Part shown: one piece after another, positions 16,655-40,727 of the stretch | Numbering within the stretch: position 1 is the stretch's first letter | Layout of the letters: each line of letters starts with the position of its first letter | DNA from: an uncultured Pseudoflavonifractor sp. | Lineage (GTDB): Bacteria > Bacillota > Clostridia > Oscillospirales > Oscillospiraceae | Direction: 5' to 3' | DNA: 64,000 bases | Assembly (NCBI GenBank): GCA_947577065.1 | Contig: CANPTT010000008.1 | Span: forward strand, 1-64,000 | Notes under the pieces: model-generated | What the model was told of the DNA's origin: nothing | The model's database searches: none | What the model saw: the letters and a program-made list of their open reading frames with translations, nothing else | Made by a program: the position numbers and the translations under genes

Positions 16655-16657
16655 TTT

Positions 16658-19826: not shown

Positions 19827-19952
19827 CGCTCTCCCTCCTGTCTTTTTTAGAAGCAAAGGTATTGTACCACATTTGGAAGGAGGTAGTAAAGTCCGCCGCC
19901 GCCGGTTTTCCGGCATATTGGGTCACATAACAAAAATATGTGATATGTGAAA

Positions 19953-19980
19953 AAGGAGGGCGCCGGAAGGCGCCCTCCTT
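19953..19980 (-). terminator. Terminator after ppdK
   Basis: AAGGAGGGCGCC-TTCC-GGCGCCCTCCTT followed by TTTCAC on minus strand. Confidence 0.85.
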
Positions 19981-19988
19981 CAAGTCTC

Positions 19989-22628: not shown

Positions 22629-22746
22629 AAAGTATCCTCCTTCATTCCGCTCTGGTGTAATTTTTTTGTGCGCAATTTTGAGCTTGACAGATATATTTGA
22701 TTATAAGCACTTTGGCCTGGAAAAGCAAGGAATCTTTTCCTCTTTT

Positions 22747-23484
22747 TCACGTTTTTTCCTTCACAAAGGGACCCAGCCATTTTTGGGCGGACCGGGTCAT
22801 TTCCCGTGAAAAGGCCGACTCATATTTTCTCTCGCAAAAAGCCCTGATCCATTCCTCAAAGCTCCGCTGCCCCGTATGGCCCTGAAACATCGACCGCAGC
22901 TCCTCCCCAGTAAGGGTGCGGTAGCGGTTTTCTGAAACCGTATATCTGCTCTCAAACCGCTTCGGCTTGGGGCGGGCCGCCTGCTGCTCTGTGGGATGGC
23001 CGATCACCAAAAGAGCGGCTGGGAATACAAATTCAGGCAGTCCCAGCAGCTGCCGTACCCGCTCCTCATTTTCCAAAATATCCCCGATGTAGCAGCTTCC
23101 CAGTCCCAGGGCCTGTGCTGCCGTCACCACATTTTGGGCGGCGATGAGAGCGTCCGCCATGGCCAGAAGGGCATCTCCCAGCCCGGGACTCCGGGGCGTC
23201 AGCCCCGCCTCTCGATACGCCTCCAACCATCTTTGGCAGTCGGCACAGAAAACAAGGACCATGGGGGACGCGGCGATAAAATCCTGGTGGTCACACAGCT
23301 GAGCCAGCTCCTCCTTTTCCTCTTGATCCGTCACGTCAAGAATGGTATAGAGCTGCTGGCATCCGGCGGTGGGAGCCTGGAAGGCGCACTCCAGCAAAAG
23401 GGTTCTCTCCTCCGCCGCCACAGGCTCCTCGGTAAAGATCCGGACAGATCTTCGGTCATACAAGCTTTGGATCACAGGGTCCAT
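22747..23484 (-). CDS. Nitroreductase family protein (NfsA-like)
   Basis: MDPVIQSLYDRRSVRIFTEEPV...ASPMVLVFCADCQRW...AAQALGLGSCYIGDI. Confidence 0.87.
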   Translation of the reverse strand: MDPVIQSLYDRRSVRIFTEEPVAAEERTLLLECAFQAPTAGCQQLYTILDVTDQEEKEELAQLCDHQDFIAASPMVLVFCADCQRWLEAYREAGLTPRSPGLGDALLAMADALIAAQNVVTAAQALGLGSCYIGDILENEERVRQLLGLPEFVFPAALLVIGHPTEQQAARPKPKRFESRYTVSENRYRTLTGEELRSMFQGHTGQRSFEEWIRAFCERKYESAFSREMTRSAQKWLGPFVKEKT

Positions 23485-23604
23485 TGGGATCCTCCTCCGT
23501 ATATTCTTTGCTCCTATCATGCCACAGGATAAAAAATTTTTCAACCGGGAAAAGCGCCCCAATGGGACCATTGAACGCCTGTCAAAAAAGGAAAGGCAAA
23601 ATTA

Positions 23605-23662
23605 TTGACAAAAATAGATGGGTCTGCTATACTTCTTATTGGTTGGTTTAACGTTTGATTAA
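23605..23662 (+). promoter_or_regulatory. Sigma-A promoter plus downstream LacI-type operator-like sequence
   Basis: TTGACA (23605-23610)-N17-TATACT (23628-23633); TTGGTTTAACGTTTGATTAA at 23643-23662 before the lacI RBS. Confidence 0.75.
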
Positions 23663-23670
23663 CGGAGGTA

Positions 23671-24735
23671 ATGGATGTGCACGCCACATTAAAGGACATT
23701 GCAGACGAGGTCGGGACCTCCATCACCACCGTCTCAAAAGTGCTAAACGGAAAAGAGATCCGTGTTTCTGAGGACAAGCGCCAGGAGATCCTGGCGGTGG
23801 CCGAGCGCCTGAAATATCTGCCCAACATTTCAGGCGTCAATCTTCGGAAGGGCTGCACCGACCTGATCGCCGTCATTGTGGGCGATCTCCTATACCCTTA
23901 CTACGCCAAGCTGCTCAAGGAGATGAGCGATCTGATCAGCTCCCGCGGCAAAAGCGTGATCGTCTGCGACATCGATAACAACGAGGAGATGGAACGAAAG
24001 CACTACCAGCGGCTGAAGAGCGGGTATGTGGACGGAGCCATTATCGTTCCCTCCCCCATCAATCGCTCAGAGGACAATGTGAAACAGGTCACCAAGATCC
24101 TGAGCGGCATCGACATGCCCATCCTGATGGTATCCGGCGACGGAGGAGAGGTGTATCCCGACTTCACCACCGTGGGGACCGATTCCGAAAAATGCGGGTA
24201 TATCGCCACCAAGCACCTGATCGAGCTGGGTCACCGCAGGATCGCCTATGTGTCCGAGCCCAGGGAAACGGGGCGGACCAATCCCCGGCTATGGGGCTAC
24301 ATCGCCGCGCTGCAGGAGGCCGGCATCCCCTATCAGCCTGAATGGGTCGCCTTGGGCCGCACCCGCTACAACGGTGGACGGACGGCCTATCAGGAGCTGG
24401 TCGGTCACGGGGTGACCGCGGCGGTTTGTTCCAGCGATATGCTGGCCATCGGCTTTGCGGGAGCAGCTATGGCGGACGGCTGTCTGGTCCCGCAGAACTG
24501 CTCTGTGATCGGCATGGATAACATCATGGCCACCGAGCAAAACACCCCCCAGATCACCACCGTCTCCCAAGGAGTGGGAGAGATCGCCCAAATTGCCGTG
24601 CAGGAGCTTTTTGACGACCTGGACGCCCGGAGACGCGGGCAAAAAAGAAAGCTCTGCCACATTCAGATCGAGCCCGAGCTGGTCGTGCGGCACAGCACCG
24701 CCGCTCCCCGGCAGAACGGGGGAAGCCGCCTATGA
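23671..24735 (+). CDS. LacI-family transcriptional regulator
   Basis: ATLKDIADEVGTSITTVSKVLNGKEIRVSEDKRQEILAVAERLKYLPN. Confidence 0.95.
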   Translation: MDVHATLKDIADEVGTSITTVSKVLNGKEIRVSEDKRQEILAVAERLKYLPNISGVNLRKGCTDLIAVIVGDLLYPYYAKLLKEMSDLISSRGKSVIVCDIDNNEEMERKHYQRLKSGYVDGAIIVPSPINRSEDNVKQVTKILSGIDMPILMVSGDGGEVYPDFTTVGTDSEKCGYIATKHLIELGHRRIAYVSEPRETGRTNPRLWGYIAALQEAGIPYQPEWVALGRTRYNGGRTAYQELVGHGVTAAVCSSDMLAIGFAGAAMADGCLVPQNCSVIGMDNIMATEQNTPQITTVSQGVGEIAQIAVQELFDDLDARRRGQKRKLCHIQIEPELVVRHSTAAPRQNGGSRL

Positions 24736-25955
24736 GCCGAAAGCGATATTATCCCTACCTTATTTTTCTTTTATGCTTTTTGATCCAAGGCGGTATTTTG
24801 GGTATCATCTCCAACTGCCGGGGCCTTTTCTACACGCCGGTATGTGAAGAATTGGGGATCGGATTGGGCACATTCACCGCCTATTCCACATTTTACGGCA
24901 TAGCCCTCTGCGCCTCCATCCCGCTGGCGACAAAGCTTGTCCGGCAGGGAAATTTACGGGTGGTCTTAACGGCGGGCAGCGTGGCCATCGCCGCCACGCA
25001 ATACGCCATGTCCTGGTTCAACGCCCCCTGGCAATGGTATCTGGCCGCGGCAGTGCAGGGCATTTGTCACGCGGTGCTGTTTATTCAAACGGTACCCATG
25101 CTGATCCACAACTGGTTTGCCGATCGGAAGGGCCTTTTCCTCGGCCTTGCCTGCTCCGCTTCCGGTCTGGTAGGCGCCGTGATGAACCGGGCCACCGAGC
25201 GGTACATGGCCCTCCACGGCTGGCGCGCCTCCTACCGCATGCTGGGACTCGTTCTGTTTCTGCTTCTGGTCCCTGCCTGCGCCGCTTTTTCCGTTCGCCG
25301 GCCCGAGGACGTAGGGGCAAGGCCCTATGGCGCGGACCGGGTCCGGGCTCCCACAAAGGCCGTTCAAAAGGACTTCCAAAATTTCAAGCGCAAGCACATG
25401 GTCTTTGGCGCTCTGGCCGGATACGCCTGTTTGATCTGTCTGACTGTGGGATACAATCAAATTCTTTTTTTGCTTGGTTTAACGTTTAATCACTCCTCTG
25501 AGCAGGCCAGTTCCTTTGTCTCCCTGGCCATGATCGGCACCATTGTTTTTAAAGTGTCGGTGGGTTGGCTCAACGACCGTTTTGGGGCGGCGGCAGCCTG
25601 CTACCTCTCAGGCTTCGGCATTGCGGCCGGCCTTCTTCTGCTGATGATGGGGCAGACCACAAGCTTTATGTTGGCCGGCTCTCTTCTGATGGGAATGCCC
25701 ATGGCGGTATCCATCGTGGTCATGCCCAATTTGGTCCGCAGCGTATTTGGAGAACAGGAATTTGAGAGCAGGTATAAGCTTTTGTCCATTCTGGTCAACC
25801 TGTCCAGCAACTTCAGCTACTCCCTCATCGGTTGGATGATATCCGTAACGTCCTACCAGGATACTCTGGCCGTTGGCGCTCTTGTGACGGCGGTGGCCCT
25901 GCTTTTGTCCGCGATAGCCTTTGCGATCCGAAAAAGGAGTTTTGTCTATGAATGA
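24732..25955 (+). CDS. MFS transporter
   Basis: 12-TM-like protein MSRKRYYPYLIFLLCFLIQGGILGIISNCRGLFYTPVCEELGIGLGTF. Confidence 0.88.
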   Translation: MSRKRYYPYLIFLLCFLIQGGILGIISNCRGLFYTPVCEELGIGLGTFTAYSTFYGIALCASIPLATKLVRQGNLRVVLTAGSVAIAATQYAMSWFNAPWQWYLAAAVQGICHAVLFIQTVPMLIHNWFADRKGLFLGLACSASGLVGAVMNRATERYMALHGWRASYRMLGLVLFLLLVPACAAFSVRRPEDVGARPYGADRVRAPTKAVQKDFQNFKRKHMVFGALAGYACLICLTVGYNQILFLLGLTFNHSSEQASSFVSLAMIGTIVFKVSVGWLNDRFGAAAACYLSGFGIAAGLLLLMMGQTTSFMLAGSLLMGMPMAVSIVVMPNLVRSVFGEQEFESRYKLLSILVNLSSNFSYSLIGWMISVTSYQDTLAVGALVTAVALLLSAIAFAIRKRSFVYE

Positions 25956-26484
25956 AGTGATCAAAACCATTCTGGAGCGCCGCTCCATCCGCAGCTTTGA
26001 ACCGCGGGAGGTGGAGGCCGAGATCGTCGCCGAGATCCTGGAGTGCGGCCGATGCGCTCCCTGTGCCTGGGGCCGTCAGAGCTTTGAATTTTTCGCGGTG
26101 ACCGACCGGAGGTTGCTGCATGAGCTGGCCTGCCTCACCGCCAAGTATTTGGGGGGTGAGCCCCGGGAGCACGACTTTTTCTCCGCGCCGCTGGTGATCC
26201 TTGTCGCCGACCTGCGGGAAAATTTTATGCGTTTGGCCGACGCCGGCTGCGCCATGGAAAATATGTTTATTGCCGCCCAAAGTTACGGTCTTGGCTCTGT
26301 CTGGATCAACCAGCTCTCCCCCATCAGCGATAAGCTGGAGGTCATTGAAAAGCTGGAGAGCATCGGTGTGACCAAGGACCGTATCATCACCAGTGTAGGG
26401 GCCTTTGGCTATCCGGGGGAAGGCCCACGGGAAAAAGAACTGATTTCCAAGGTCCATTACATCCGAGGGGAGGAAACCCTATGA
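25948..26484 (+). CDS. Nitroreductase family protein
   Basis: MNEVIKTILERRSIRSFEPREVEAEIVAEILECGRCAPCAWGRQSFEFFAV...SYGLGSVWINQ. Confidence 0.9.
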   Translation: MNEVIKTILERRSIRSFEPREVEAEIVAEILECGRCAPCAWGRQSFEFFAVTDRRLLHELACLTAKYLGGEPREHDFFSAPLVILVADLRENFMRLADAGCAMENMFIAAQSYGLGSVWINQLSPISDKLEVIEKLESIGVTKDRIITSVGAFGYPGEGPREKELISKVHYIRGEETL

Positions 26485-27230
26485 CCATGCACAACCACGC
26501 CCGGCCCGGACAGATCGCCAGCCACGTGATCGTAGCCGGAGACCCCGGGCGGGTGGAGTATATTGCCCAGACTTATTTAAAAAACGCGGAGTTGGTAAGC
26601 GATGTGCGGGGGGCGGTATGCTATACCGGCATTTATGACGGCCAGCGCATTTCCGTTATGGCCACCGGCATGGGAGTGCCCTCCATGCTCATTTACGCCA
26701 CCGAGCTTTTTCGGGACTACGGCTGTGAGGCCATTATCCGGATCGGTACCTCAGCGGGCTACCTGAGCTCCATGAAGCGTCACGATATCGTCTTGTCCCA
26801 GGCCGCCTGCCACACCACAGCCATCAACGACGGTCTGTTTAACGGGACCTTCTGCCCCATCGCGGACTTCGGCCTGCTTCGCCTGGCCGACCGGGAGGCC
26901 CATCGCATGGGCCAGGCGGTATACATAGGCAACACAGTCTGCAACGACCGATATTACCGTCTTCCGGAGAGCTACCGTTCCTCCAGCTGGGCCGATTACG
27001 GCGTCCTCTGTTCAGAGATGGAGGCGGCCGGTCTCTATACCGCGGCGGCCCAGTTCCGCAAGCGGGCTTTGATGATCGTCTCCATTCTCTCCCACCTGGA
27101 CCGTGACGAGGCCGGGAGGGAGACCATCACCCCTCTCCCCCAGGGAGAGCAGACCATCGACAACGCCATCCTTCTGGCTCTTTCCACCGCGGCGGCAGAC
27201 ATCCGGGAGGGACAAGATGGAGCTCTTTGA
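26481..27230 (+). CDS. DeoD-type purine nucleoside phosphorylase-like protein
   Basis: VAGDPGRVEYIAQTYL...VRGAVCYTGIYDGQRISVMATGMGVPSMLIYATEL...SEMEAAGLY. Confidence 0.87.
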   Translation: MTMHNHARPGQIASHVIVAGDPGRVEYIAQTYLKNAELVSDVRGAVCYTGIYDGQRISVMATGMGVPSMLIYATELFRDYGCEAIIRIGTSAGYLSSMKRHDIVLSQAACHTTAINDGLFNGTFCPIADFGLLRLADREAHRMGQAVYIGNTVCNDRYYRLPESYRSSSWADYGVLCSEMEAAGLYTAAAQFRKRALMIVSILSHLDRDEAGRETITPLPQGEQTIDNAILLALSTAAADIREGQDGAL

Positions 27231-27768
27231 GGCCATGCGTGCCCGGAGCAGCGTGCGGGAATACCGGGACGAGCCGATCCCCCCGGGAAAAATAGCGGCC
27301 CTGCAGCAGGCCGCTCTGCTGGCCCCCACCTCCCTGAACCTCCAGGAGCAAAAATTTTATTTTATTACCGACCGATCCGTCCTAAACCGGATCACAGAGG
27401 GAATGATAGAAGTCTCCCGGCAGCGAGAGGAATGGGACTATCTGGAGCGGCTGGCCCAGCGGGACGGAAAAGCCCTCTTCGGCGCCCCTCTGCTCATTGT
27501 GATCGCTGTAAACTCAAAAAATAATTATATCGATGTAGACGCCGGGATCGCCGCTCAAAACATCACTCTGGCGGCCAAGGCCCTGGGTCTGGATTCGGTC
27601 ATTATGGCCGCACCCGACCGGGTCTTTGGGGGAGAGCGAGGTGAAGAATACGCCGCCCTGATCGGCATTCCCGAGGGATATCGTTTCGCCATTTCAGTGG
27701 CTGTGGGCTACGGGGCCCGCCCCTTCCCGCCTCATGACCTGAAGCCGGGAAACATCCTATCCGTATAA
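27217..27768 (+). CDS. Nitroreductase family protein
   Basis: MELFEAMRARSSVREYRDEPIPPGKIAALQQAALLAPTSLNLQEQKFYFITD...AAKALGLDSVIMAAPD. Confidence 0.9.
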   Translation: MELFEAMRARSSVREYRDEPIPPGKIAALQQAALLAPTSLNLQEQKFYFITDRSVLNRITEGMIEVSRQREEWDYLERLAQRDGKALFGAPLLIVIAVNSKNNYIDVDAGIAAQNITLAAKALGLDSVIMAAPDRVFGGERGEEYAALIGIPEGYRFAISVAVGYGARPFPPHDLKPGNILSV

Positions 27769-27823
27769 GTGACAGGCCGCATTTGCGGTTTTCACAAAAA
27801 CCAAACAAAAAGGAGAAGAACAA

Positions 27824-28948
27824 ATGAAAAAGAAAAACTGGCTCGCGATCCTTCTTGCCCTGAGCATGACCCTGGGACTGGCCGCCTGCGGCAAAGCCCC
27901 CAGCGCGCCCACGCCCTCGGCGGGCACACCGGACGACGCCCCCTCCGCCTCCGGCGAGTCCTGCAATGTGGTCCTTGTCGTCCCCAACACCTTGGGTGAC
28001 AAAGCCTTCTCCGACATGGTCTGGGCCGGCGTTCAGATGGCCAAGGCGCAGAATCCCCAGGTCGGCAACATCAAGTGCATCGAGCTTCAGGGCGACACCA
28101 CCACTCCCATCCCCACCATGACCGAGTTGGCCGAATCCAAGGAGTGGGATATCATCGTCACCGGCACCTTTAGCCTGAAGGAATCCATTGTGACCGTGGC
28201 CGAACAGTTCCCCGACCAGAAATTTATTATCTACGACGCCGATATGGATTACAGCAACGGCGCCTTTGCCAACTGCTCCTCCTTTGCGGCCCTGCAAAAC
28301 GAGGGTTCCTTCCTGGGCGGCGCCCTGGCCGCCCTCATGTCCGACACCGGTGTCGTCGGCTTTGTGGGCGGCAAGGAGACCAGCTCCGTCAGCGACTTCC
28401 TGGTGGGCTACATTGAGGGCGCGTCCTATATCAACCCCGACATTGTAGTTCGGTCCTCCTTTATCGGCAGCTTTACCGACACCCCCAAGGCCAAGGAGCT
28501 TGCCCTGGCTCAGAACGCCCAGGGTGCCGACGTGATCTACGCCGTCTGCTCCGGTGCCGGCGCCGGGGTTTATGAGGCCGCCGCCGAAAACAATTTCTGG
28601 TCTCTGGGCGTGGATTCCGACCAGTCTTTGATCTTTGAGGAAACCAACCCCACCGCCGCCAAGGCCATTCTCACCTCCGTGGTAAAGAATTTTGACACCA
28701 TCCTGTGCCAAGCCATTACCGACGCTATCAGCGGCGATTTCCAGTGGGGCGTCCACAACGCCATCGACCTGGCCGCCGGCGGTATCGGCCTTGCCGAAAA
28801 CAGCTACTATGAGGCCGCCGTCCCCGCCGACATCCGCGCCCAGATCGACGAGCTCAAGGGCAAGATCGAAAGCGGAGAGATCAAGGTCAGCACTGCCATC
28901 GGCATGGAGGCCAGCGTATACGAAGCGCTCAAGGCGTCTGTGAATTAA
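27824..28948 (+). CDS. BMP-family (PnrA-like) nucleoside ABC transporter substrate-binding lipoprotein
   Basis: Lipobox LGLAACGK; VVLVVPNTLGDKAFSDMVWAGVQMAK...AVCSGAGAGVYEAAAENNFWSLGVDSDQ. Confidence 0.92.
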   Translation: MKKKNWLAILLALSMTLGLAACGKAPSAPTPSAGTPDDAPSASGESCNVVLVVPNTLGDKAFSDMVWAGVQMAKAQNPQVGNIKCIELQGDTTTPIPTMTELAESKEWDIIVTGTFSLKESIVTVAEQFPDQKFIIYDADMDYSNGAFANCSSFAALQNEGSFLGGALAALMSDTGVVGFVGGKETSSVSDFLVGYIEGASYINPDIVVRSSFIGSFTDTPKAKELALAQNAQGADVIYAVCSGAGAGVYEAAAENNFWSLGVDSDQSLIFEETNPTAAKAILTSVVKNFDTILCQAITDAISGDFQWGVHNAIDLAAGGIGLAENSYYEAAVPADIRAQIDELKGKIESGEIKVSTAIGMEASVYEALKASVN

Positions 28949-28984
28949 AAATAAACCAGCGGACAGCGCGGCAAGGAGGCTGCC

Positions 28985-30538
28985 ATGGAACAGGAATACG
29001 TCCTTTCAATGCAAAACATCACTAAGATCTATAAGGACGGCTTTGTAGCCAACAAAAATATCGACTTCTCCGTCCGAAAGGGGGATATCCACGGTCTGGT
29101 AGGGGAAAACGGCGCCGGAAAAAGCACCCTGATGAAGGTACTCTTCGGCCAGGAACTGCCTGAGACCGGCAAGATATTCTTCAAGGGGGAGGAGGTCAAT
29201 ATCAGCAGTCCCCTCGCCGCGCTGAAGCTCGGGATCGGGATGGTGCACCAGCATTTCATGCTGGTGCCCTCCCTTACCGTGGCCGAAAACATGGTATTTG
29301 GCATGGAACCCACCAAGGGGGGGCTTTTCGATTTCAAGGAGGCCGTCCGCCTAACCGAGGAGGTGGCCCAAAAATACGGTCTTCCCATCGACCCCAACAT
29401 GAAGATCCGGGACCTCTATGTGGGCCAGAAGCAGCGGGTGGAGATCTTAAAGATGCTCCTGCGGAATGTGGAGGTCCTCATTCTGGACGAGCCCACGGCC
29501 GTGCTTACCCCCCAGGAGACCCAGGAGCTGTTTGTCCAGCTGGTCAAGCTGAAAGAGCAGGGCTATACCATCATCTTCATCTCCCATAAGCTGGGGGAGA
29601 TCAAGCAGATCTGCGACCGGCTCACCGTGCTGCGGGACGGCTGCTCTATTCAGACCGTGGACGTGGACAGCGTCACAGAACAGGACATCTCCCGCATGAT
29701 GGTGGGCCGCAACGCAGTAAACTCTCTGGTAAAGACTCCTCCCAAGATCGGACAGGTCAAGCTCCGGGTAAAGCGTCTCAATTACTTTAACGGCTTTGGC
29801 AAGCACGTACTTCAAAACGTCTCCTTTCAGGTGCGGGGCGGCGAGATCCTGGGTATTGCCGGGATCGAGGGGAACGGCCAGCGGGAGATCTCCGAAATGA
29901 TCACCGGCATCGACTCCATCCAAAGCGGCGAGATCCTGGTCAACGGTACCTGCGTCAAAGGGAAGAGCGTACGGGAGATCCGGGAAATGGGGGTGGCCCA
30001 CATCTCAGAAGACCGCATGACCTACGGTGCGGCCGCCGAGGCTTCTATCGAGCAGAATCTGATCTCCGACCGGTTTTATAAAAAGCAATATCAGCGTGGG
30101 CAGATCCTGAACAAAAAAGTGATCCAAAGGACCTCCAGGGAACTCATCAAGAGCTTTACCATTAAATGCGACGGCGGCTCCGCCCCTGTGAAAACTCTCT
30201 CCGGCGGCAACATTCAAAAGGTGGTGGCTGCCCGCGAGTTCTCCCAGAGCCCCCAGGTCATGGTAGCCAACCAGCCCACCCGGGGAATTGACGTAGGCGC
30301 CAGCGAGCTGATCCGGGAAAAGCTGATCGCTCTGCGGGACGAGGGTGCCGCCGTGCTCCTCATCTCGGCCGACATGGGCGAGCTGCGGGAGGTAAGCGAC
30401 AGTCTTATCGTTCTTTGCAACGGAAAAATCGTGGCCTACTTCGAAACGGTGGAGGGCCTGAGCGAAAACGAGCTGGGCGAATATATGCTGGGGCTGAAAG
30501 AACAGACGCCGGAGGAGATCGGGAGGTGCTTCCAATGA
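28985..30538 (+). CDS. Nucleoside-type ABC transporter ATP-binding protein (two NBDs)
   Basis: GLVGENGAGKSTLMKVLFG...EVLILDEPTAVLTPQE...LSGGNIQKVVAAREF. Confidence 0.95.
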   Translation: MEQEYVLSMQNITKIYKDGFVANKNIDFSVRKGDIHGLVGENGAGKSTLMKVLFGQELPETGKIFFKGEEVNISSPLAALKLGIGMVHQHFMLVPSLTVAENMVFGMEPTKGGLFDFKEAVRLTEEVAQKYGLPIDPNMKIRDLYVGQKQRVEILKMLLRNVEVLILDEPTAVLTPQETQELFVQLVKLKEQGYTIIFISHKLGEIKQICDRLTVLRDGCSIQTVDVDSVTEQDISRMMVGRNAVNSLVKTPPKIGQVKLRVKRLNYFNGFGKHVLQNVSFQVRGGEILGIAGIEGNGQREISEMITGIDSIQSGEILVNGTCVKGKSVREIREMGVAHISEDRMTYGAAAEASIEQNLISDRFYKKQYQRGQILNKKVIQRTSRELIKSFTIKCDGGSAPVKTLSGGNIQKVVAAREFSQSPQVMVANQPTRGIDVGASELIREKLIALRDEGAAVLLISADMGELREVSDSLIVLCNGKIVAYFETVEGLSENELGEYMLGLKEQTPEEIGRCFQ

Positions 30539-31614
30539 ATAAAACCAAGAAAATCGAAGCGTTCTTTTTTGTCCTCCGCGACCTGTGCGCCATCGGGATC
30601 GCTCTGCTCATCTCCCTGATCCTTATCTTCGCGGTGAGCCAGGACGGCTGGGGCGCCTTTCGCCTCTTCCTTTTCGGCCCCCTTCAAACGGTGAGTCGAA
30701 TGGGCTATATTGTGGAAAAGATGATCCCGCTCATGTTCACCGGCGTAGGCGTGTGCCTTATGGTCCGCTGCGGACAGATGAACATGGGCAGCGAGGGTGC
30801 TTTTTATCTGGGCGGCGTTGCCTGCGCTGCGGCAGCCATCAAGATCGCCCTGCCCGCCGGGATCCACCCCCTGGTCTGTATGCTGGCTGCCGGCGTCGTG
30901 GGCGCTCTGGCCTGCGGCGTTACCGCCGTGCTCCACACCAAGTTTCACGCGCTGACTATCGTGACCTCCCTGATGATGAACTACATTTGCCTGTACCTGG
31001 GCCAGTACTTCATCAACCACCCCCTTTGGGACTCTATGTCCGGATACCAGGCGTCCTTTAAATACGCCCAAACTGCGCTTCTTCCCAAGCTGTTTTCCCG
31101 CACCAACATCCACGCCGGTCTCTTTGCCGCCGTGGCAGTGGTCATTCTAGGTCACATCCTGCTGGAAAAAAGCACCTTTGGCTACCGGATCAAGATGGTG
31201 GGCACCAATCTTCACTTTGCCCGGTACTCCGGCATCAACGTGACCGCCACCATCATCATCTGCGAACTGATCGGCGGCTTCCTGGCCGGTTTTGGCGGTG
31301 CGGTGGAACAGCTGGGCATGTATAAACGGTTTGAGTATTCCGGCCTGTCCGGACACGGCTTTGACGGTGTTATGATCGCCGTTATCGCGGGCAACAACCC
31401 CAAATACATTCCTCTGGCCGCCCTGTTCCTGGCCTATGTGCGGGTAGGGGCGGAGGCTATGGCCCGCATGTCCGACGTCCCTCCCGAGCTGGTCTCCATT
31501 GTCCAGTCGGTGGTCATCATGCTGGTCGTGGCCGAGAAATTCCTTGCCGGCTGGAAGCACCGGGTCATCGCCAAGCAATCTATGAAGGACCTTGCGCTCA
31601 CGGAGGTGAAATAA
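30535..31614 (+). CDS. ABC transporter permease (nucleoside/BMP type)
   Basis: GVGVCLMVRCGQMNMGSEGAFYLGGV...YSGLSGHGFDGVMIAVIAGNNPKYIPLAALFLA. Confidence 0.93.
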   Translation: MNKTKKIEAFFFVLRDLCAIGIALLISLILIFAVSQDGWGAFRLFLFGPLQTVSRMGYIVEKMIPLMFTGVGVCLMVRCGQMNMGSEGAFYLGGVACAAAAIKIALPAGIHPLVCMLAAGVVGALACGVTAVLHTKFHALTIVTSLMMNYICLYLGQYFINHPLWDSMSGYQASFKYAQTALLPKLFSRTNIHAGLFAAVAVVILGHILLEKSTFGYRIKMVGTNLHFARYSGINVTATIIICELIGGFLAGFGGAVEQLGMYKRFEYSGLSGHGFDGVMIAVIAGNNPKYIPLAALFLAYVRVGAEAMARMSDVPPELVSIVQSVVIMLVVAEKFLAGWKHRVIAKQSMKDLALTEVK

Positions 31615-31616
31615 GC

Positions 31617-32588
31617 ATGGAAAGCGTATTGGGGTATATCTTTTCCACAGAGTTTATTATCGCGATCCTCCGTATGAGCACACCCCTGATCCTGTGCTCC
31701 ATGGGGGTGCTTCTGGTGCGGAACTCGGGGGTGGTCTGCATCGCCTTTGAGTCCATGATGCTGGCTGCCGCTCTGGGCGGGGTCCTGGGCAGCGCCTATT
31801 CCAGGAGTCTGCTGGTGGGCCTTCTGTGCGGCATTGCTCTCAGCGTTTTGTTTGCCATGCTGTTTGGATTTTTTGTCCTGGTGCTAAAGGCCAACAATAT
31901 GCTGGTAAGCTTGGCCCTCAACACCTTGGGCAGCGGCGGGACAGTATTTATCCTGTTCGCCTTTACCGGCGACCGCGGCAGCTCTACCAGCATTCAAAGC
32001 CTTCAATTTCCCACCGTAAATATCCCTGTCATTCAGGATATTCCCATTCTGGGCAACATCCTCTCCGGCCACAATATTTTGACCTATGTGGCCCTTGTCA
32101 GTGTGCCCGTGGTCTATCTGATCCTGATGAAATCTCCTCTGGGCCTTCGCATCCGGGCGGTGGGGGAAAACAAAAACGCCGCGGAATCTCTGGGGACCAG
32201 CGCGATGAAGACCCAGTTCGTCGCACTGTTCATCGCCGGCATTTTCGCCGGTCTCGCGGGCATGTACATGTCGATGGCCTACGTCTCCGCCTTTACGCAG
32301 GACATGATCGCCGGTCGGGGCTTTATCGCCATCGCGGCTCAAAATCTGGGCGGCTTTATGCCGATCCCTACCCTTATCTGGTCCCTGGTGTTCGGTGCGT
32401 CCAATGCTATCGCCAACGCCTTCCAGGCCATCAATATGCCCCCGGAATTTCTCCAGATGTTCCCCTACTTTTCCACTGTTTTGGGTTTGATGCTGGTGGG
32501 TATGAGCATCAACCAGCAGGAGAAGAAAAAAGCCGCGGAGATCGAAGAAAAGTCAAAACTGGCTGACGCCTGTGAAGGGAATGGATAA
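31617..32588 (+). CDS. ABC transporter permease (nucleoside/BMP type)
   Basis: LRMSTPLILCSMGVLLVRNSGVVCIAFESMMLAAALGG...LGLRIRAVGENKNAAESLG. Confidence 0.93.
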   Translation: MESVLGYIFSTEFIIAILRMSTPLILCSMGVLLVRNSGVVCIAFESMMLAAALGGVLGSAYSRSLLVGLLCGIALSVLFAMLFGFFVLVLKANNMLVSLALNTLGSGGTVFILFAFTGDRGSSTSIQSLQFPTVNIPVIQDIPILGNILSGHNILTYVALVSVPVVYLILMKSPLGLRIRAVGENKNAAESLGTSAMKTQFVALFIAGIFAGLAGMYMSMAYVSAFTQDMIAGRGFIAIAAQNLGGFMPIPTLIWSLVFGASNAIANAFQAINMPPEFLQMFPYFSTVLGLMLVGMSINQQEKKKAAEIEEKSKLADACEGNG

Positions 32589-32590
32589 CT

Positions 32591-33598
32591 ATGACAAAGC
32601 CAAAGATCATTATGGACGTAGACACCGGTACCGATGACGCCGTAGCCCTGACTCTGGCTATGTTGGGCGGGGAGGTAGAGCTGCTGGGCGTCACCACAGT
32701 GAATGGAAATCTGGAGTTAAAGCTTACCACAGACAACACGCTGCGGGTGGTGGACTATTGCGGGAAGGGTGACCAGGTCAAGGTGTACAGCGGCTGTGAA
32801 TATCCGTTGGTCTCCACCCTCTCCCCCACCAGCGCCCAGTCCCTTCACCCCATTCCGAAGCGGGAGGGAACAAAGGTGGCCTTTGCCATGCACGGCGACC
32901 ACCTTCCGTTGCCGGAAACCAACTTGAAGCCCCAGGCCAAGGGCGCGGTCCTTTGGCTCATTGAAACCATCATGGCCGCCGAACCGGGCTCCATCTCCAT
33001 TGTCGCCCTCGGCCCCCTGACCAACATCGCCACCGCCATGCGGGCCGAGCCTTCCTTCGCCTCCCGTCTGAAGGAGATCGTGCTGATGGGCGGCGGAGAC
33101 CGGGTGTGCAATGCCTCCCCCGCCGCGGAGTTTAACATCTGGACAGATCCGGAAGCGGCGGAGATCGTATTGCAAAGCGGCTGTAAGCTGTCCATTATCC
33201 CTCTGGACGCCACGCATGAGGCAGAGATCTCCGCCTCAGAGGCCGACGAGCTGGCGGCCATTGGAAGCAAGGAGGCCCGGTTTGTGGCAGACGTTATCCG
33301 GGGACGGATCGGCGGCTACAGCCTTCGGGATCCTGACCTGGCTGCCCGCCAGGCCGCCCCACTCCACGACGCCCTGGCCCTGTGCTATCTCCTCCACCCC
33401 GAATGCGTCAGCAAAAAGCTGGAGGCCGTGTGCCATGTGGACATATCCGGAGGGCGGGCCTACGGCAGAACGGTGGTGGATCGCCGTGCCAACCTGGTCT
33501 CCGAAGCGCCCAACTGCACCTTTGCCCTGGGCGCCGATCGGGAGTGGTTCCTTCAGTGGATGAGCGGACTTTTAAAGCAGGCCGCCCTCGGCTCTTGA
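32591..33598 (+). CDS. Inosine/uridine-preferring nucleoside hydrolase
   Basis: KPKIIMDVDTGTDDAVALTLAMLGGEVELLGVTTVNGN...VALGPLTNIATAM...VLMGG; HDALALCYLLHPE. Confidence 0.96.
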   Translation: MTKPKIIMDVDTGTDDAVALTLAMLGGEVELLGVTTVNGNLELKLTTDNTLRVVDYCGKGDQVKVYSGCEYPLVSTLSPTSAQSLHPIPKREGTKVAFAMHGDHLPLPETNLKPQAKGAVLWLIETIMAAEPGSISIVALGPLTNIATAMRAEPSFASRLKEIVLMGGGDRVCNASPAAEFNIWTDPEAAEIVLQSGCKLSIIPLDATHEAEISASEADELAAIGSKEARFVADVIRGRIGGYSLRDPDLAARQAAPLHDALALCYLLHPECVSKKLEAVCHVDISGGRAYGRTVVDRRANLVSEAPNCTFALGADREWFLQWMSGLLKQAALGS

Positions 33599-33627: not shown

Positions 33628-33662
33628 AAATCGGGGCCCCCTGTCAGACGACAGGGGGCCCC
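33628..33662 (-). terminator. Terminator downstream of the flavoprotein gene (minus) / convergent
   Basis: GGGGCCCCCTGTC-N4-GACAGGGGGCCCC, with ATTTTTG on the minus-strand 3' side. Confidence 0.8.
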
Positions 33663-33685
33663 AACTCGAAAGGAGAGAAAAACGC

Positions 33686-36097
33686 TTATTTCTTCAGCGC
33701 CGCCACAACGCTCTGAGCCGCCACGGCTCCGGAGGTCCAGGCGTAGCCCTGAGTCCAGCCCTCCCCTTCATAGTAAGGGTAGCTGAAATAGCCGCCGCTG
33801 TCCTGACCGGCCACATAGAGCCCCGAGATGGGCTGGTAGTCCTTGTTCATGGCCTGCATCTTGTCGTTGACCCGGATACCGTTGTAGGTACCGTCAATGG
33901 CAGAGATGACCTTCACGGCGTAGTAGGGACCCTTGTCCAGGTCGGGCATCATATCGGCGCGTTTGCCGAAGAGGGGATCCTCCCCGGTCTTCAGGACCTG
34001 GAGGTAGTCGGCGATGGTCTCCTGGTAAAGGCCCTGGTCTTCAAAACCGATAACCTTGCCCAACTCCTCCAGAGAGTTGGCCTTCCAGGCCTCCCCGGCC
34101 TCCAGAGCCGCCTGCATCTCGTCGTTCAGGGTGTAGTAGGAGGGCACCACGATCCGGGCCCGAAGCTTCAGGCTCTCAATGGTCTCCTTACTCAACACGC
34201 CCCACAGCCCCTTTTCCACCATGGCGTCCAACTGGTCCTGGGTAAAGACCAGATAGGCGTAGCCCACCCGGCGAAGAGCCGAGGCGCCGTAGGACAGGGC
34301 CTGGGTCACAAAGAACTCCTCATTGACAAACCGCTGGCCGGAGGGATCCAGGGCCAGGAAACCGGCCTGGTTCATAAACTTCATATAGCCGGCGTAGAAG
34401 TCCAGGTTCTTGTTGGAGCAGAATTCAGCCAGGTGAGGAGAGACCTCATCGGACAGGGAGGCCCCGGCGGCCAGGCACATGTTGAGGCCGTCGCCCACAT
34501 TGGTGGCCAGGCCGTTGAGATAGAAGTTGTCGTGGCCGAAGTACTCCCGCATCATCTCATCGTTGCCCCCGAAGCCGCCGGTGCAGACCAGGGTGGCCTT
34601 GGCGTTGACGGTAACGGTGGTCCCGTCCTGCTTTACGGCCTTTACCCCCGCCACGGTATCCCCCTTCATGATGAGGTCGGTGGCGGAGGTTTCCAGCAGC
34701 ACCTTCACCCCGCCGGGCTCAAGAAAGTTGTCATAGAGCACATCAAACTTGTGGGTGCCCTTCCCGGTGTCGTGGGCCCAGCGGGCGTTGTTGACCTTGG
34801 TGACGCCGGGGTCATCGGTCTTGTCCCAGTAGCCCTGGATCTTGTTGGCAACACCGGCGCTGGAATTTAAGATCTTATAGACCAAGGGGGCATTGGCCCG
34901 CCACTTGCAGAAGTCCATCAGGGTCTTAAAGGTGCCGTCCACGGTCTGGGGGTTGTCCACCGCCTTCTGCAGGTCACTCCCCACGGCGGCAAATCCGGTG
35001 GAGCACACCGAGGTGCCGCCCACCTTACCGCATTTCTCCAACACCACGACCTTCAATCCGGCCTCCATGGCCTCCAGGGCCGCCATGGTTCCCGCCGCAC
35101 CGGCGCCCACGATGGCCAGATCTACGTCATAGCTCTCGCTGGCAGAAGACTTGGCTACAGGGGCGTTAAAGCCCGCCAGGTTGGCTCCCGCCTGGGTCAG
35201 GGCCTGGGAGATGCCGCTCATGATGGCATTGCTGGTCATGGTAGCGCCGGTGACAGTATCCACCGCCAGGGACTGGTGCTCCACTACGGCGGCGGGGATG
35301 CGCTCCATGCAGGGCTCGATAAAGCCCGGGGTATCGGAACAATCCTCCACCACCACGGAGAGGATCTTGGTCTCATCTACGGTGACGGCCACCTTGGTGG
35401 GAAGAATGGTGGCGGGGGAGCCGAAGCGCTCGCCCTCAATGGTGCCCTTGCCCCACTTTCCGTAGGCCTCGCCGTAATAGGTGCCCGGCTTCATGTGCTG
35501 CTCCACCGCCACGGTCTTCCCCGCGAGGGTGACGCCGCTCTGCCCCAGGGCCTCCTTGGCGGCAGCCAGGACGGCTGCGCTGGTGATCGAGGCGCCGGAT
35601 ACGGCCTCCACCTCCACGCTGCCGGCGGCCATCATGGTCTGGGGCAGCAGGTCCACGGCCCGGCTGCCAATGCCGCTGGTCTCCTTATCGCCCACTACAG
35701 CGACAGCGGCCAGGGCTCCGCCGGAAATGGTCAGGGTAACGGTCACATCGCCGCCAAAGCCTTGGGCCGTAGCGGTGTAGGCGCCGTCCTTTCCTCCGGC
35801 AGGCTGTACGGGAGCCTTTACATCCCCCACCAGCTTTACGGTGTTGGGGTCATTCTTGTCCCACTCCACATCGATGCCCAGCAGTTCACACAGATAGCGC
35901 ACAGGGGCATAGGTAACGCCCTCGGAGGCGAAGACCTCCCCCTCCGCGCCGTTGGAGGCGACGGCGGACACCTTCTGACCGTTGACCGCCAGCTCCATGG
36001 GCATCACGGAGATGGTCCTTGCCCCACCGACGGCCAAAGCCGTTGTTCCCATGACCATGGCAGCAGCCAGGGCCAGGGCCGTGATCCTTTTTTTCAT
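33686..36097 (-). CDS. Secreted FAD-dependent reductase with copper-amine-oxidase-like N-domain and two FMN-binding domains
   Basis: Signal peptide; NGQKVSAVASNGAEGEVFASEGVTYAPVRYLCELLG; flavinylation-like motifs SGASITS and TGATMTS; FAD_binding_2 domain VDLAIVGAGAAGTMAALEAMEAGLKVVVLEKCGKVGGTS. Confidence 0.92.
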   Translation of the reverse strand: MKKRITALALAAAMVMGTTALAVGGARTISVMPMELAVNGQKVSAVASNGAEGEVFASEGVTYAPVRYLCELLGIDVEWDKNDPNTVKLVGDVKAPVQPAGGKDGAYTATAQGFGGDVTVTLTISGGALAAVAVVGDKETSGIGSRAVDLLPQTMMAAGSVEVEAVSGASITSAAVLAAAKEALGQSGVTLAGKTVAVEQHMKPGTYYGEAYGKWGKGTIEGERFGSPATILPTKVAVTVDETKILSVVVEDCSDTPGFIEPCMERIPAAVVEHQSLAVDTVTGATMTSNAIMSGISQALTQAGANLAGFNAPVAKSSASESYDVDLAIVGAGAAGTMAALEAMEAGLKVVVLEKCGKVGGTSVCSTGFAAVGSDLQKAVDNPQTVDGTFKTLMDFCKWRANAPLVYKILNSSAGVANKIQGYWDKTDDPGVTKVNNARWAHDTGKGTHKFDVLYDNFLEPGGVKVLLETSATDLIMKGDTVAGVKAVKQDGTTVTVNAKATLVCTGGFGGNDEMMREYFGHDNFYLNGLATNVGDGLNMCLAAGASLSDEVSPHLAEFCSNKNLDFYAGYMKFMNQAGFLALDPSGQRFVNEEFFVTQALSYGASALRRVGYAYLVFTQDQLDAMVEKGLWGVLSKETIESLKLRARIVVPSYYTLNDEMQAALEAGEAWKANSLEELGKVIGFEDQGLYQETIADYLQVLKTGEDPLFGKRADMMPDLDKGPYYAVKVISAIDGTYNGIRVNDKMQAMNKDYQPISGLYVAGQDSGGYFSYPYYEGEGWTQGYAWTSGAVAAQSVVAALKK

Positions 36098-36140
36098 ACA
36101 TATTCTCTCCTTTTTTGGGGGATCCCCCAGTGTTGAAAAA

Positions 36141-36171
36141 ATCATACACGCTAAAGCGACTTTAGATGCAA
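36141..36171 (-). promoter_or_regulatory. MerR-type promoter/operator for the flavoprotein gene
   Basis: Minus strand TTGCAT-N19-TATGAT with perfect dyad CTAAAG-TCG-CTTTAG (36151-36165) in the spacer. Confidence 0.85.
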
Positions 36172-36187: not shown

Positions 36188-36226
36188 AACAGAGGCCGTG
36201 GGAGAATATTCTCCCACGGCCTCTGA
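36188..36226 (-). terminator. Terminator of the hydrogenase-merR operon
   Basis: CAGAGGCCGTGGGAGAATATTCTCCCACGGCCTCTG followed by TTTTTTC on minus strand. Confidence 0.88.
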
Positions 36227-36366: not shown

Positions 36367-37197
36367 CTATCCCTCCACCGCCAACCAATATTCAAAATGG
36401 ACCATCTGTGGAAGCAGATCCTCCCGGCATCGGATCTCCCCCGTCTTGGCAAGGCAACGGCCTACGGCAGAGGTCACCGTCAGCCCTTTGTCCCGGGCGT
36501 AGTCCAAGGCGTAGCCCAACAGCTCCCCCACCGTAATGCCGGGACGGTCCAGGGCGGTAACGGTATGAATGGCCCGGCCTCCCCCCATCACCCGAGTATG
36601 GAGGCCCCGGGGCACCCCCAGAGTCCCGGCTACCGGCTCCTCTATGCAGTAGCCACATTCCCGGGCTTCCTCATAGGGGGAGTCCGGAACCAGTCTCTCC
36701 CCCTCTATGGCCACGGCGGCGTAGACCCAGGGAAGGAAGTGCATCCACTCCTGGACCTCCTTCTGAAGGGCGGGGGTCTGGTCCACGTTCTGTCCCTTCT
36801 GGTCCATCACAAGCCAGAGCCGGGGCATATCCGCCATCTCACAGCGGTGAAACAGCTGACCGATCCGTTCCAGCTCCTCTCTCTGTCGCCGAAGAGCGCC
36901 CAAGCGGCTCTCCAGCAGCTCCAGCTCTGCCCGTGTCTCCCGTTCCTTCGCCGCCGCCATAACATCCAGCTCTTGGACACTCTCGCAGGAGAAGAGCTCC
37001 AGGGTCTCCTCCAGACTGTAGCCCAGGTCATGATACCGCCGAATGCTGTAGAGCCATTTCAGGTTGCGGCTTTGGTATCTCCGGTCTCCCCCCTCGCTCT
37101 CCCGGGCGGGCAAAAGCAGACCGTGGCGCTCATAAAAGCGCAGGGCCTGGGGTGTGACCCCAAACCGTTTTGCCAGGGTACCGATCTTATAATACAT
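36367..37197 (-). CDS. MerR-family regulator with effector-binding (GyrI-like) C-terminus
   Basis: MYYKIGTLAKRFGVTPQALRFYERHGLLLPARESEGGDRRYQSRNLKWLYSIRRYHDLGYSLEETLEL. Confidence 0.9.
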   Translation of the reverse strand: MYYKIGTLAKRFGVTPQALRFYERHGLLLPARESEGGDRRYQSRNLKWLYSIRRYHDLGYSLEETLELFSCESVQELDVMAAAKERETRAELELLESRLGALRRQREELERIGQLFHRCEMADMPRLWLVMDQKGQNVDQTPALQKEVQEWMHFLPWVYAAVAIEGERLVPDSPYEEARECGYCIEEPVAGTLGVPRGLHTRVMGGGRAIHTVTALDRPGITVGELLGYALDYARDKGLTVTSAVGRCLAKTGEIRCREDLLPQMVHFEYWLAVEG

Positions 37198-37200
37198 CCC

Positions 37201-38907
37201 TCACAGCTCCCAATCCTCCTGCTCGGTATGGAGCAGTTCATGGGCCCTATGGGACAGGGGCGCACCCAAATAGCTCTTATAAAGCTCCTCCACTGCCGGG
37301 TTCTCATGGGAGAAGCGCAGGGCGTAGGAGCGGTCCAGCTCATAAAGCCGTTCCCCCCGCTCTCCCGCCAGCTCCTGCCCGTCACAGATGGGCTGTCCGC
37401 CCCCTCCGGCACAGCCGCCGGGGCAAGCCATGATCTCCACAAAATCGTAGGAGACCTCTCCCCTCTCCAAGGCTTCCACCAGCTTCCTGGCATTGCCCAG
37501 TCCACTGGCCACCGCCACTTTCAGCTTCTTATCCCGGATCTGGAAGGAGGCTTCCTTCCAACCATCCAGGCCCCGGACCTCAGAAAATGCGTCCACCTCC
37601 GGATTCCGACCGGTAAGCAGGTAGTAGGCGCTGCGCAGGGCCGCCTCCATAACACCGCCGGTGGCCCCAAAAATGACCCCCGCTCCGGTGGCGGTGCCCA
37701 GGGGCTGGTCAAATTCCTCTTCTTCCAGGGCCGCCACATCCACATGCCGCAGCAGCCGCCCCAGTTCCCGGGTGGTGAGGACCACATCCACATCCTTCCG
37801 GGCGGCGTCGTTCACCGCCGCCACATCACACTCGTACTTCTTGGCGGTGCAGGGCATAATGGACACGCAGAAGATCTTGTCCGCCTCCACCCCCAGCAGC
37901 TGGGCATAATAGCTCTTGGCCACCGCCCCAAACATCTGCTGGGGACTCTTGGCTGTGGAAAGCTTCTTCACCAGATGGGGATACTCCAGCTTCAAAAACC
38001 GTACCCATCCAGGACAGCAGGAGGTAAACATGGGCCCCTGCCGCCCCTCCTTGATGTGCTCAATGAGCTCGCTTCCCTCCTCCATGATGGTGAGGTCGGC
38101 GGAAAAATCAGTATCAAACACATAGTCCACGCCCAAGGCCCGGATGGCAGCCACCATACGTTTCTCCGTGGCCGCTTCGGCGCTCACGCCCACCGCGTCC
38201 CCCCAAGCCGCCCGGACGGCGGGGGCCACCTGGACCACCACGATCTTCTCGGGGTCGGCGACCGCTTGGCGGACTCTCTGGGTATCGTCCCGGACCGTAA
38301 GCGCTCCCACAGGGCAGTGGGTGATGCACTGCCCGCACAGGGCGCAGTTCACATCCCGAATGCTTTTCCCTCCGGCGACCTCTACCCTGGCCCGCTTCCC
38401 CGTTCCCGTCAAGGACCAAACCCCCAGGGTCTGTACCTTCTCGCACACATTGACACAGCGCAGGCACTGGATACACCGAGAGGCGTCCCGGACCAGCGGA
38501 AAGGTCTTGTCCCACTTGTTGGAGAAGGGCTTCTTCTCAAAGGGTTCCTCCTGCAGATTCAGGTCCAGGGCAACCTTCTGCAGCTTGCAGTTCCCATTGC
38601 GCATGCAGGTGGTGCAGGACACGTTATGCTGGCTCAGGATCAGCTGCACATTGATCCGTCTGGCGTCCAGGACCCGAGGAGTCGCGGTGCGGACCACCAT
38701 CCCCTCCTCCGCCACAGTGGCGCAGGCGGCGCTGAGCCGGTCCTGCCCCTCGATTTCCACCACGCACACCCGGCAGGCTCCGATCTCATTCAGATCCTTT
38801 AGATAGCAGAGAGTCGGAATGTCGATCCCCGCCTTCTTCGCGGCGTCTAAAATAGTAGTCCCCTGTTCCACCGCCACCGGGTGGCCATCGATCGTCAGTT
38901 TTACCAT
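37201..38907 (-). CDS. [FeFe]-hydrogenase, group A
   Basis: N-terminal 2Fe-2S domain; H-cluster motifs TSCCPGW, MPCTAKKYE, MACPGGCAGGGGQP. Confidence 0.96.
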   Translation of the reverse strand: MVKLTIDGHPVAVEQGTTILDAAKKAGIDIPTLCYLKDLNEIGACRVCVVEIEGQDRLSAACATVAEEGMVVRTATPRVLDARRINVQLILSQHNVSCTTCMRNGNCKLQKVALDLNLQEEPFEKKPFSNKWDKTFPLVRDASRCIQCLRCVNVCEKVQTLGVWSLTGTGKRARVEVAGGKSIRDVNCALCGQCITHCPVGALTVRDDTQRVRQAVADPEKIVVVQVAPAVRAAWGDAVGVSAEAATEKRMVAAIRALGVDYVFDTDFSADLTIMEEGSELIEHIKEGRQGPMFTSCCPGWVRFLKLEYPHLVKKLSTAKSPQQMFGAVAKSYYAQLLGVEADKIFCVSIMPCTAKKYECDVAAVNDAARKDVDVVLTTRELGRLLRHVDVAALEEEEFDQPLGTATGAGVIFGATGGVMEAALRSAYYLLTGRNPEVDAFSEVRGLDGWKEASFQIRDKKLKVAVASGLGNARKLVEALERGEVSYDFVEIMACPGGCAGGGGQPICDGQELAGERGERLYELDRSYALRFSHENPAVEELYKSYLGAPLSHRAHELLHTEQEDWEL

Positions 38908-40727
38908 CTCTTGTCCCTCCCTCCCCGGAACGAACCCATTCCATGATGATCGCAGCGCAGACACCGGGAGCACTCCTGATGCGCCTCCTGCTCGGTCATG
39001 CACAGCTCCATCAGAGCAAAGTCTCCCTTTCTCTCTCCGGCGGCCCGCTCGGCCATATTGATCCGTCCGCAGGGGCCCGCCGCGGTCCGCGGGGCGTCCG
39101 GGATGGCCACCGGTCGCGCCAGCACATGGTGGAACCCCAAGTACGCGTCAATGTTGGCGGCGGCCGTTTTCCCCGCCTCCACAGCCCGGATCACGGTGGA
39201 GGGTCCGCTTACCGCGTCTCCTCCGGCAAAAACAGCCTCGCTGCCAAAGACGGCGCAGCCCGCGTCACTCTTCAGGTTATTCCGGCTCACAGGCAGCCCC
39301 CGCTCGGCAAAGGTGGCGCTGTCCACCACCTGCCCGATGGCGGCCACGATCACGTCGCACTCCAGCCGCACCTCCTCCCGGTCCGCCTTCACCGGCCGGG
39401 GCCGCCCCCGGTCATAGGCCCCGGGAAGCTGGGGTTGGACAATAAGGGCGGCCACGTTCCCATCCCGGTCCTTCTCCACCCGAACAGGGGACATCATGGT
39501 CACCATCTCACAGCTCTCGGCAATGGCCCCCTCCACCTCCTCAGGAAGGGCGGTCATATCCTTTTGACGGCGGCGGTAGACACACTTGACCTCCTTGGCT
39601 CCAAGCCGCATGGCGGTCCGGGTGCAGTCCATAGCTACATTGCCGCCTCCCACGACCACCACCCGCTTGCCCCGAAGGTCCAGCTCCTCCTCATCCCCCA
39701 TGGCCCGCAGCAGCTCCACCGCGGACAGCACGTTCCCCGCGTCCTCTCCGGGAACTCCCAGGCTGTTGGCGGCGTGGGCGCCGATGGCGATGTATACCGC
39801 GTCAAATTCCTTGCGCAGCTGCTCATACCTCTCTCCGGTAATGGCGACTCCGGTCTCAGCCGTTACCCCGGTACTCAAAATAGCGTCGATATCCGCGCTT
39901 AAGTAAGACTCCGGCAGCCGGTACCGGGGAATGCCATAGCGCATCATACCTCCCAGCTTCTTCCGCTGCTCAAACACCGTAACTTGGTGGCCCATCAGCT
40001 GCAAAAAGTAGGCCGCCGTCAGCCCGGAGGGACCGCCTCCCACCACCGCCACCTTCTTTCCCGTGGCGGGCAGGGGCTCGGGAGTGGGCACCGTCCCCGC
40101 GTTGTCGATGGCCATGCGTTTGATCCCCCGGATGTTTATCGCATCGTCCACCATATTTCTCCGGCACACGTTCTCACAGGGATGCTCGCACACCAGGGCG
40201 CAGGCCGCTGGGAAGGGGTTGTCGTACCGGATGACCCGCACCGCGTCGGCATACCGCTTCTCCTTCACCAGGGCGATGTACTCCGGGATATCCACGTGAG
40301 CCGGACACCCCAGCTTACAGGGTACCGGTACAAAGGTAGCGGTACAGTGATCGGACAGGATATGGGCCATAAAGTCCTCATGGAAGGACTGGAGGCTCTC
40401 CAAAAGGCTCCCCGCCGCCTCATAGCCGATGGGGCAGTCGGCGCTGTCCCGAATCGCCTGGGCCAGCCGCTCCAGGGTATCCAGGTCCTCCATCTCTCCC
40501 CTGCCCTCCAGGATACGGCCCAGAATAAGGGACATCTGGTTCAGTCCTACCCGACACGGGACGCACTTGCCACAGCTTTGGGAGGCACACAGAGCCAAAA
40601 ATGCCGCGCTCTGCTCCACTGGACAGTTCCCCGCCGGAGCCACTGCCCCCCGCCGGGCCAGGTCGGCATACAGGCTGCTGACCTTTTTCTCCGCCCCGGA
40701 GGGATGGATGATCTCGATCCGATTCAT
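38901..40727 (-). CDS. NuoF C-terminal-like 4Fe-4S domain fused to GltD-like NAD(P)H FAD oxidoreductase
   Basis: SCGKCVPCRVGLNQM; then CKLGCPAHVDIPEYIALVKEKRYADAV, KKVAVVGGGPSGLTAAYFLQLMGHQVTVFE, VVVVGGGNVAMDCTRTAMRLGA. Confidence 0.93.
   Translation of the reverse strand: MNRIEIIHPSGAEKKVSSLYADLARRGAVAPAGNCPVEQSAAFLALCASQSCGKCVPCRVGLNQMSLILGRILEGRGEMEDLDTLERLAQAIRDSADCPIGYEAAGSLLESLQSFHEDFMAHILSDHCTATFVPVPCKLGCPAHVDIPEYIALVKEKRYADAVRVIRYDNPFPAACALVCEHPCENVCRRNMVDDAINIRGIKRMAIDNAGTVPTPEPLPATGKKVAVVGGGPSGLTAAYFLQLMGHQVTVFEQRKKLGGMMRYGIPRYRLPESYLSADIDAILSTGVTAETGVAITGERYEQLRKEFDAVYIAIGAHAANSLGVPGEDAGNVLSAVELLRAMGDEEELDLRGKRVVVVGGGNVAMDCTRTAMRLGAKEVKCVYRRRQKDMTALPEEVEGAIAESCEMVTMMSPVRVEKDRDGNVAALIVQPQLPGAYDRGRPRPVKADREEVRLECDVIVAAIGQVVDSATFAERGLPVSRNNLKSDAGCAVFGSEAVFAGGDAVSGPSTVIRAVEAGKTAAANIDAYLGFHHVLARPVAIPDAPRTAAGPCGRINMAERAAGERKGDFALMELCMTEQEAHQECSRCLRCDHHGMGSFRGGRDKRW

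Follow-up and report, generated by a model that had tools for sequence, protein, structure and literature searches.

Which signal switches on the predicted exported flavin reductase encoded in this DNA, and which electron acceptor does the enzyme serve? Exported flavin reductases without an assigned substrate number in the dozens in gut bacteria, and Little et al. are said to have worked on gut flavin reductases in 2024. A search of the open literature gave no paper in which such a reductase is under MerR control. In this study, one such gene was analysed within a stretch of 64,000 nucleotides (hereafter the window), together with the genome from which the window comes (the home genome, approximately 85% complete) and with related genomes. 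We believe that a MerR-switched exported flavin reductase best explains the whole locus, and we give this reading a probability of roughly 0.7. The features are collected in Table 1.

Table 1. Coordinates of the features discussed, as positions in the window
Feature	Position	Strand	Remark
Exported (predicted) multi-flavin reductase, 803 aa	33686..36097	-	start ATG 36097
Weak Cu_amine_oxidN1 match, residues 54-83	35849..35938	-	under Pfam cut-off in home copy
Flavinylation motif 1 SGAS, residues 167-170, first FMN_bind domain (residues 113-184)	35588..35599	-	
Flavinylation motif 2 TGAT, residues 283-286, second FMN_bind domain	35240..35251	-	
FAD_binding_2 domain, residues 326-770	33788..35122	-	Pfam
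Intrinsic terminator 3' of reductase	33628..33667	-	18-bp stem, -37.3 kcal/mol
-10 element TATGAT	36141..36146	-	19 bp from -35
15-bp dyad CTAAAG-TCG-CTTTAG, predicted MerR operator	36151..36165	-	fills spacer positions 1-15
-35 element TTGCAT	36166..36171	-	read directly; kept in G003 and at C30
Intrinsic terminator between MerR gene and reductase promoter	36190..36225	-	-34.5 kcal/mol, z -8.5
MerR-family regulator, 276 aa	36367..37197	-	PF13411
[FeFe] hydrogenase, group A6 (NCBIfam), directly upstream of MerR gene	37201..39003	-	
NuoF-C-terminal / GltD-like oxidoreductase, likely hydrogenase partner	38901..40727	-	

Direct reading of the minus strand from 36171 to 36141 gives TTGCAT, the 19-bp spacer CTAAAGTCGCTTTAGCGTG and TATGAT. 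The sequence-only reading had described a textbook MerR promoter here (TTGCAT-N19-TATGAT with a dyad in the spacer), and this was confirmed both by the direct reading and by a rarity scan. The scan used the pattern TTGNNN, a 15-bp dyad, N4 and a TANNNT-like -10, and covered 329 kb of the home genome, all of it at loci selected for their proximity to a reductase or a MerR gene. In these chosen loci, six sites had 6 or more of the 7 pairs, compared with 0.25 in simulated sequence. Four of the six sites precede flavin reductases, and three of those four lie directly behind a MerR gene. Exact matches to TTGNNTCTAAAGNNNCTTTAG numbered only two in the 2.0-Mb home genome, and both precede flavin reductases. 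The MerR gene had also been placed immediately upstream, which is right, though approximately 195 bp and a strong intrinsic terminator come before the promoter. With this terminator at 36225-36190 and another at 33667-33628, the reductase gene looks like a transcription unit of its own. The listed reading frame is longer and runs from 36145; its in-frame upstream ATG overlaps the -10 element and is unlikely to be the start.

The same arrangement was found in two other genomes. In G003, a congeneric Oscillospiraceae MAG (record L119), the MerR protein is 69% and the reductase 85% identical, and the order of hydrogenase, MerR, terminator-like repeat, TTGCATCTAAAGCTGCTTTAGGGCTTATGAT and reductase is the same as in the home genome. 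In a MAG that comes from the mouse gut according to its record name (L120), the MerR protein is 48% and the reductase 68% identical; TTGAATCTAAAGCTGCTTTACATGCTATACT, with a 19-bp spacer, lies between the two genes, and the hydrogenase is absent there. The dyad promoter pattern occurs once in the 5.6 Mb of this MAG. When four promoters were aligned, TTG-ATCTAAAG--GCTTTA was invariant and the remaining DNA had diverged. Neither the window-type MerR (E < 1e-20) nor the dyad promoter was found in the 14 other congeneric genomes. Among 351 family genomes, the home genome alone had the dyad pattern or any MerR hit below 1e-31; the same was true of the MerR at 1e-40 among 391 class genomes, and the only reductase ortholog at E < 1e-150 among 401 family genomes was the home gene. 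Because these wider searches returned home genes only, the module of MerR and reductase is rare. All three genomes having either the MerR or the dyad have both, in the same place, and the rest of the samples have neither. By this comparison, control of the reductase by the MerR protein is a well-founded prediction.

The window reductase fuses FAD_binding_2 to FMN_bind with the [ST]GA[ST] motif (Pfam scores of 148 bits for FAD_binding_2 and 81 bits over two stretches for FMN_bind). The two FMN-binding motifs and the FAD_binding_2 reductase that had been read from the letters were thus both recovered, as SGAS and TGAT and as the two Pfam domain types; at flavinylation motif 1, the window protein has E where the orthologs have D. 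The N-terminus, judged by eye, consists of MKKR, a hydrophobic stretch and ALA, and that of the mouse-gut ortholog has the lipobox-like LTSAGC. The proposed extracellular flavinylated reductase is therefore supported as a predicted exported protein with two FMN domains and one FAD domain. We regard an exported reductase carrying two FMN and one FAD as well founded at the level of sequence, and the protein would be covalently flavinylated. The stalk-like CuAO-N domain of the same proposal fared less well. The Cu_amine_oxidN1 (PF07833) match of the window reductase is marginal, at 20.9 bits under a Pfam cut-off of 24.2; it rises to 40.8 bits, above the cut-off, in the 85% identical ortholog, and the domain is missing from one ortholog. 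For multi-flavinylated proteins, a published model has PF07833 serving in dimerisation and not as a stalk (PMC11334425). An AlphaFold model of the reductase, built from three sequences, had a mean pLDDT of 33 and was discarded.

All 33 home reductases and the window orthologs were aligned to compare the catalytic residues. The positions of H365, R402, H504 and R544 of flavocytochrome c3 all differ in the window protein and in both orthologs, and R402, H504 and R544 are kept in approximately ten paralogues of the same alignment. We take these four residues to be catalytic in fumarate-type enzymes, where they presumably bind the carboxylate and donate the proton. Because the catalytic residues of fumarate and urocanate reductases are absent, a simple enoate is an unlikely substrate, and the dietary or aromatic enoates that had been put forward as acceptors lose their footing with the missing carboxylate-binding and proton-donating residues. 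By sequence, the nearest solved relatives are flavocytochrome c3 and urocanate reductase. The top NCBIfam model for both dyad-linked reductases (this one and a second, described below) is vinylphenol reductase VprA, NF053717, with 191.5 bits (window reductase) and 154 bits; both scores are well under the family's 600-bit cut-off. The name of VprA implies an ene-reductase acting on a substrate without carboxylate. Its model (481 positions) covers the FAD part only, and the FMN domains of the window protein fall outside it. We read the window reductase as an ene-reductase or a related enzyme, whose substrate would be without a fumarate-type acid. It resembles the Listeria fumarate reductase and Shewanella UrdA (survey in PMC8238504) in its signal-like N-terminus, FMN_bind with [ST]GA[ST], FAD_binding_2, an ApbE in the genome and a single-gene unit. 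Unlike them, it is without the fumarate or urocanate catalytic residues and has two FMN domains, a PF07833-like N-domain, a dedicated predicted MerR operator and approximately 33 paralogues.

These paralogues belong to a large repertoire. Approximately 33 FAD_binding_2 reductases of the window family were found in the home genome by a genome search followed by fetching of the loci, and most have FMN_bind matches and signal-like N-termini. Their neighbours include approximately 12 LysR and four MerR genes, the LysR genes being on C1, C3, C6, C14, C15, C22, C28, C36, C48 and C50. The LysR neighbours suggest separate regulation for most members of the repertoire. The home genome was expected to hold an ApbE, and a single copy was found (C4:17614-18441, E 3.1e-88). 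A full Rnf gene set lies beside it (L065:2854-12571) and supplies a plausible candidate for the electron donor that the sequence-only reading had also expected; a fumarate-type flavin reductase adjoins as well. The RnfG on C4 has 699 aa and five FMN_bind domains. Multi-flavinylated RnfG has been proposed to feed other extracytosolic acceptors (PMC8238504), and on the strength of this proposal and of the genome content, Rnf is the most likely supplier of electrons to the window reductase. The home Rnf is like those systems in that its five-FMN RnfG adjoins ApbE, and it differs in not being adjacent to the window gene.

The MerR regulator matches MerR_1 (PF13411) with 59 bits (cut-off 21.6), and its C-terminal region has no Pfam match. 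The structure model is confident in the DNA-binding half and the coiled coil only and of low confidence elsewhere; when this low-confidence model was searched with Foldseek, full-length BmrR ranked first among the PDB matches. Studies have shown that BmrR-type MerR activators work by DNA distortion on spacers of 19-20 bp (PMC7722741, PMC8113463). The window MerR shares with BmrR of B. subtilis (PMC7722741) and EcmrR (PMC8113463) the MerR HTH, a long dimerisation helix, a C-terminal domain of effector size and a dyad in a 19-bp spacer. It differs from them in that it is predicted to control an exported respiratory-type reductase, not a drug pump, and in that its C-terminal domain has conserved cysteines and no Pfam match; in the BmrR group, this domain is GyrI-like.

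From these data we infer MerR binding and activation, the electron path, and the kind of inducer and substrate as follows. The MerR protein (36367-37197) would be a one-component sensor. Without ligand, it would occupy the 15-bp dyad and keep the promoter, whose 19-bp spacer is over-long, inactive; with ligand, it would distort the DNA so that RNA polymerase could start, as BmrR does. It would then activate the window reductase, a single-gene unit, and probably also a further one on C30 that has the same operator. The window enzyme would be exported, and it would carry two covalent FMN attached by the single ApbE, plus one FAD. Electrons would most likely come from Rnf through the five-FMN RnfG and would go to an extracytosolic acceptor other than an acid of the fumarate or urocanate kind. 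The likely inducer would be the acceptor itself, which would then double as the signal, or something travelling with it. If this is true, a promoter reporter carried by a laboratory host could be used to screen for the sensor ligand, and acceptors could be found without culturing the bacterium.

The cysteines of the regulator allow a different account, in which the MerR protein senses an electrophile or a thiol-reactive or metal stress (a quinone, enal, enone or metal ion) and both reductases are extracellular detoxifiers, not respiratory enzymes. The three MerR orthologs all have C71, C119, C184, C248 and C257; the distant MerR homologues in the alignment lack C184, C248 and C257. With five invariant cysteines, sensing could be thiol- or metal-based, and two nitroreductase-family genes in the same window fit such a stress response. 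Against this, the top structural match of the MerR protein is of the ligand-binding BmrR type, a CxxC-like metal site is not established, and dozens of such reductases together with an Rnf donor in one genome fit respiration. We consider the detoxifying role unlikely.

It could also be argued that the MerR protein is a sensor of redox state or hydrogen that chiefly controls the adjacent [FeFe] hydrogenase, or shares its regulation, and that the reductase is an accessory electron sink. The MerR ATG comes almost at once after the hydrogenase stop codon, and this arrangement is kept in G003. In the mouse-gut MAG, however, MerR, dyad and reductase stand together with no hydrogenase alongside, and a conserved link between MerR and hydrogenase was rejected on that ground. 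Furthermore, no 19-bp-spacer dyad was found upstream of the hydrogenase operon, where the best promoter has a 16-bp spacer. A main role at the hydrogenase is therefore quite improbable, and we return to the MerR-switched reductase as the preferred reading; the regulator could have further targets, as its gene also follows the hydrogenase gene. In place of the usual HydB, the hydrogenase itself (37201-40727) has as its partner an oxidoreductase in which NuoF-C-terminal and GltD-like parts are fused, and this pair also adjoins the MerR gene in G003. The genes at 25921-33598, on the other side of the reductase, all point the same way and converge on it. They comprise a Bmp-type ABC transporter, a nucleoside hydrolase, a nucleoside phosphorylase-like gene and two members of the nitroreductase family, and they look like a cluster for nucleoside uptake and salvage.

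The second exact copy of the operator lies at C30:16115, and its -10 ends approximately 55 bp before the start codon of the second reductase. Because of this exact copy, the regulon is probably two-membered, with the window MerR probably driving both the window and the C30 reductases, and identity of the operator would group these two genes by a shared inducer. In the reductase tree, the C30 protein falls in a clade apart from the window protein and its orthologs; the shared operator is thus not a simple relic of recent duplication. Two reductases on C11 are sister to the window protein and its orthologs (support 95/87). A joint duplication of the MerR-reductase pair with the C11 pair was rejected because their two regulators do not form a group in the MerR tree.

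Three further MerR-reductase pairs occur in the home genome, on C11, C19 and C1, and their promoters all have spacers of 19 bp. The dyad is CTCATCTAAGGTGAG in the C11 pair and TGAAAGCTGCTTTCA in the C1 pair, and it is weak in the C19 pair. In the sister species G012, the window MerR and the window dyad are both absent, and an 86% relative of the C30 reductase lies directly behind another MerR (L135:3319-6722, G012:C1). This MerR and the home C1 MerR are 74% identical, and the 31-bp promoter core there is identical to that of the home C1 gene, whose reductase is a different, fumarate-type enzyme of 40% identity. Near-orthologous reductases thus stand with different MerRs across species, and the operator goes with the MerR; in the genomes compared the dyad tracks the regulator, not the enzyme. 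With its other sensor in G012, the C30-type reductase would illustrate the evolution of such repertoires.

The core AAAGC-N-GCTTT is common to the operators of the window and C1 MerR types; a few substitutions could thus have produced the C30 operator, and cross-talk between the two types is possible. The home genome has eight MerR genes and dyad cores are alike between MerR types, so one might assign the dyad to another regulator, such as a different one of the eight, and call the MerR neighbour incidental; this is very improbable, as dyad and window MerR occur together in three of three genomes with either and are both absent elsewhere in the samples.

Under the preferred reading, with the window MerR as the owner of the dyad, these data suggest that such bacteria may gain electron acceptors through re-pairing sensors with enzymes. 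We tentatively propose, at somewhat less than even odds, a modular set of respiratory acceptors in which each MerR has its own dyad (two of them being told apart by the bases outside the shared AAAGC-N-GCTTT), reductases swap sensors in the course of species divergence, and the window MerR, with one inducer, would open two non-fumarate-type routes with enzymes of two clades.

Distant MerR homologues, 21-31% identical, were collected from 29 family loci (L087-L115) with no such reductase in the fetched flanks. In 14 of the 29, the promoter next to the MerR gene has a 19-bp spacer, and the dyad TTGGAA-N3-TTCCAA, with small deviations, lies at the spacer positions that the dyad takes in the window. 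These loci serve as an independent test of the promoter geometry and agree with it, and their operator marks a common MerR subgroup in the family. On C30, the row at 15430-23914 (L051:3431-11916) contains four flavin reductase genes, the fourth of them truncated where the contig ends, together with an FMN_bind lipoprotein-like gene. It also holds a short 5' reductase fragment between genes, and it looks like a tandem expansion with a remnant.
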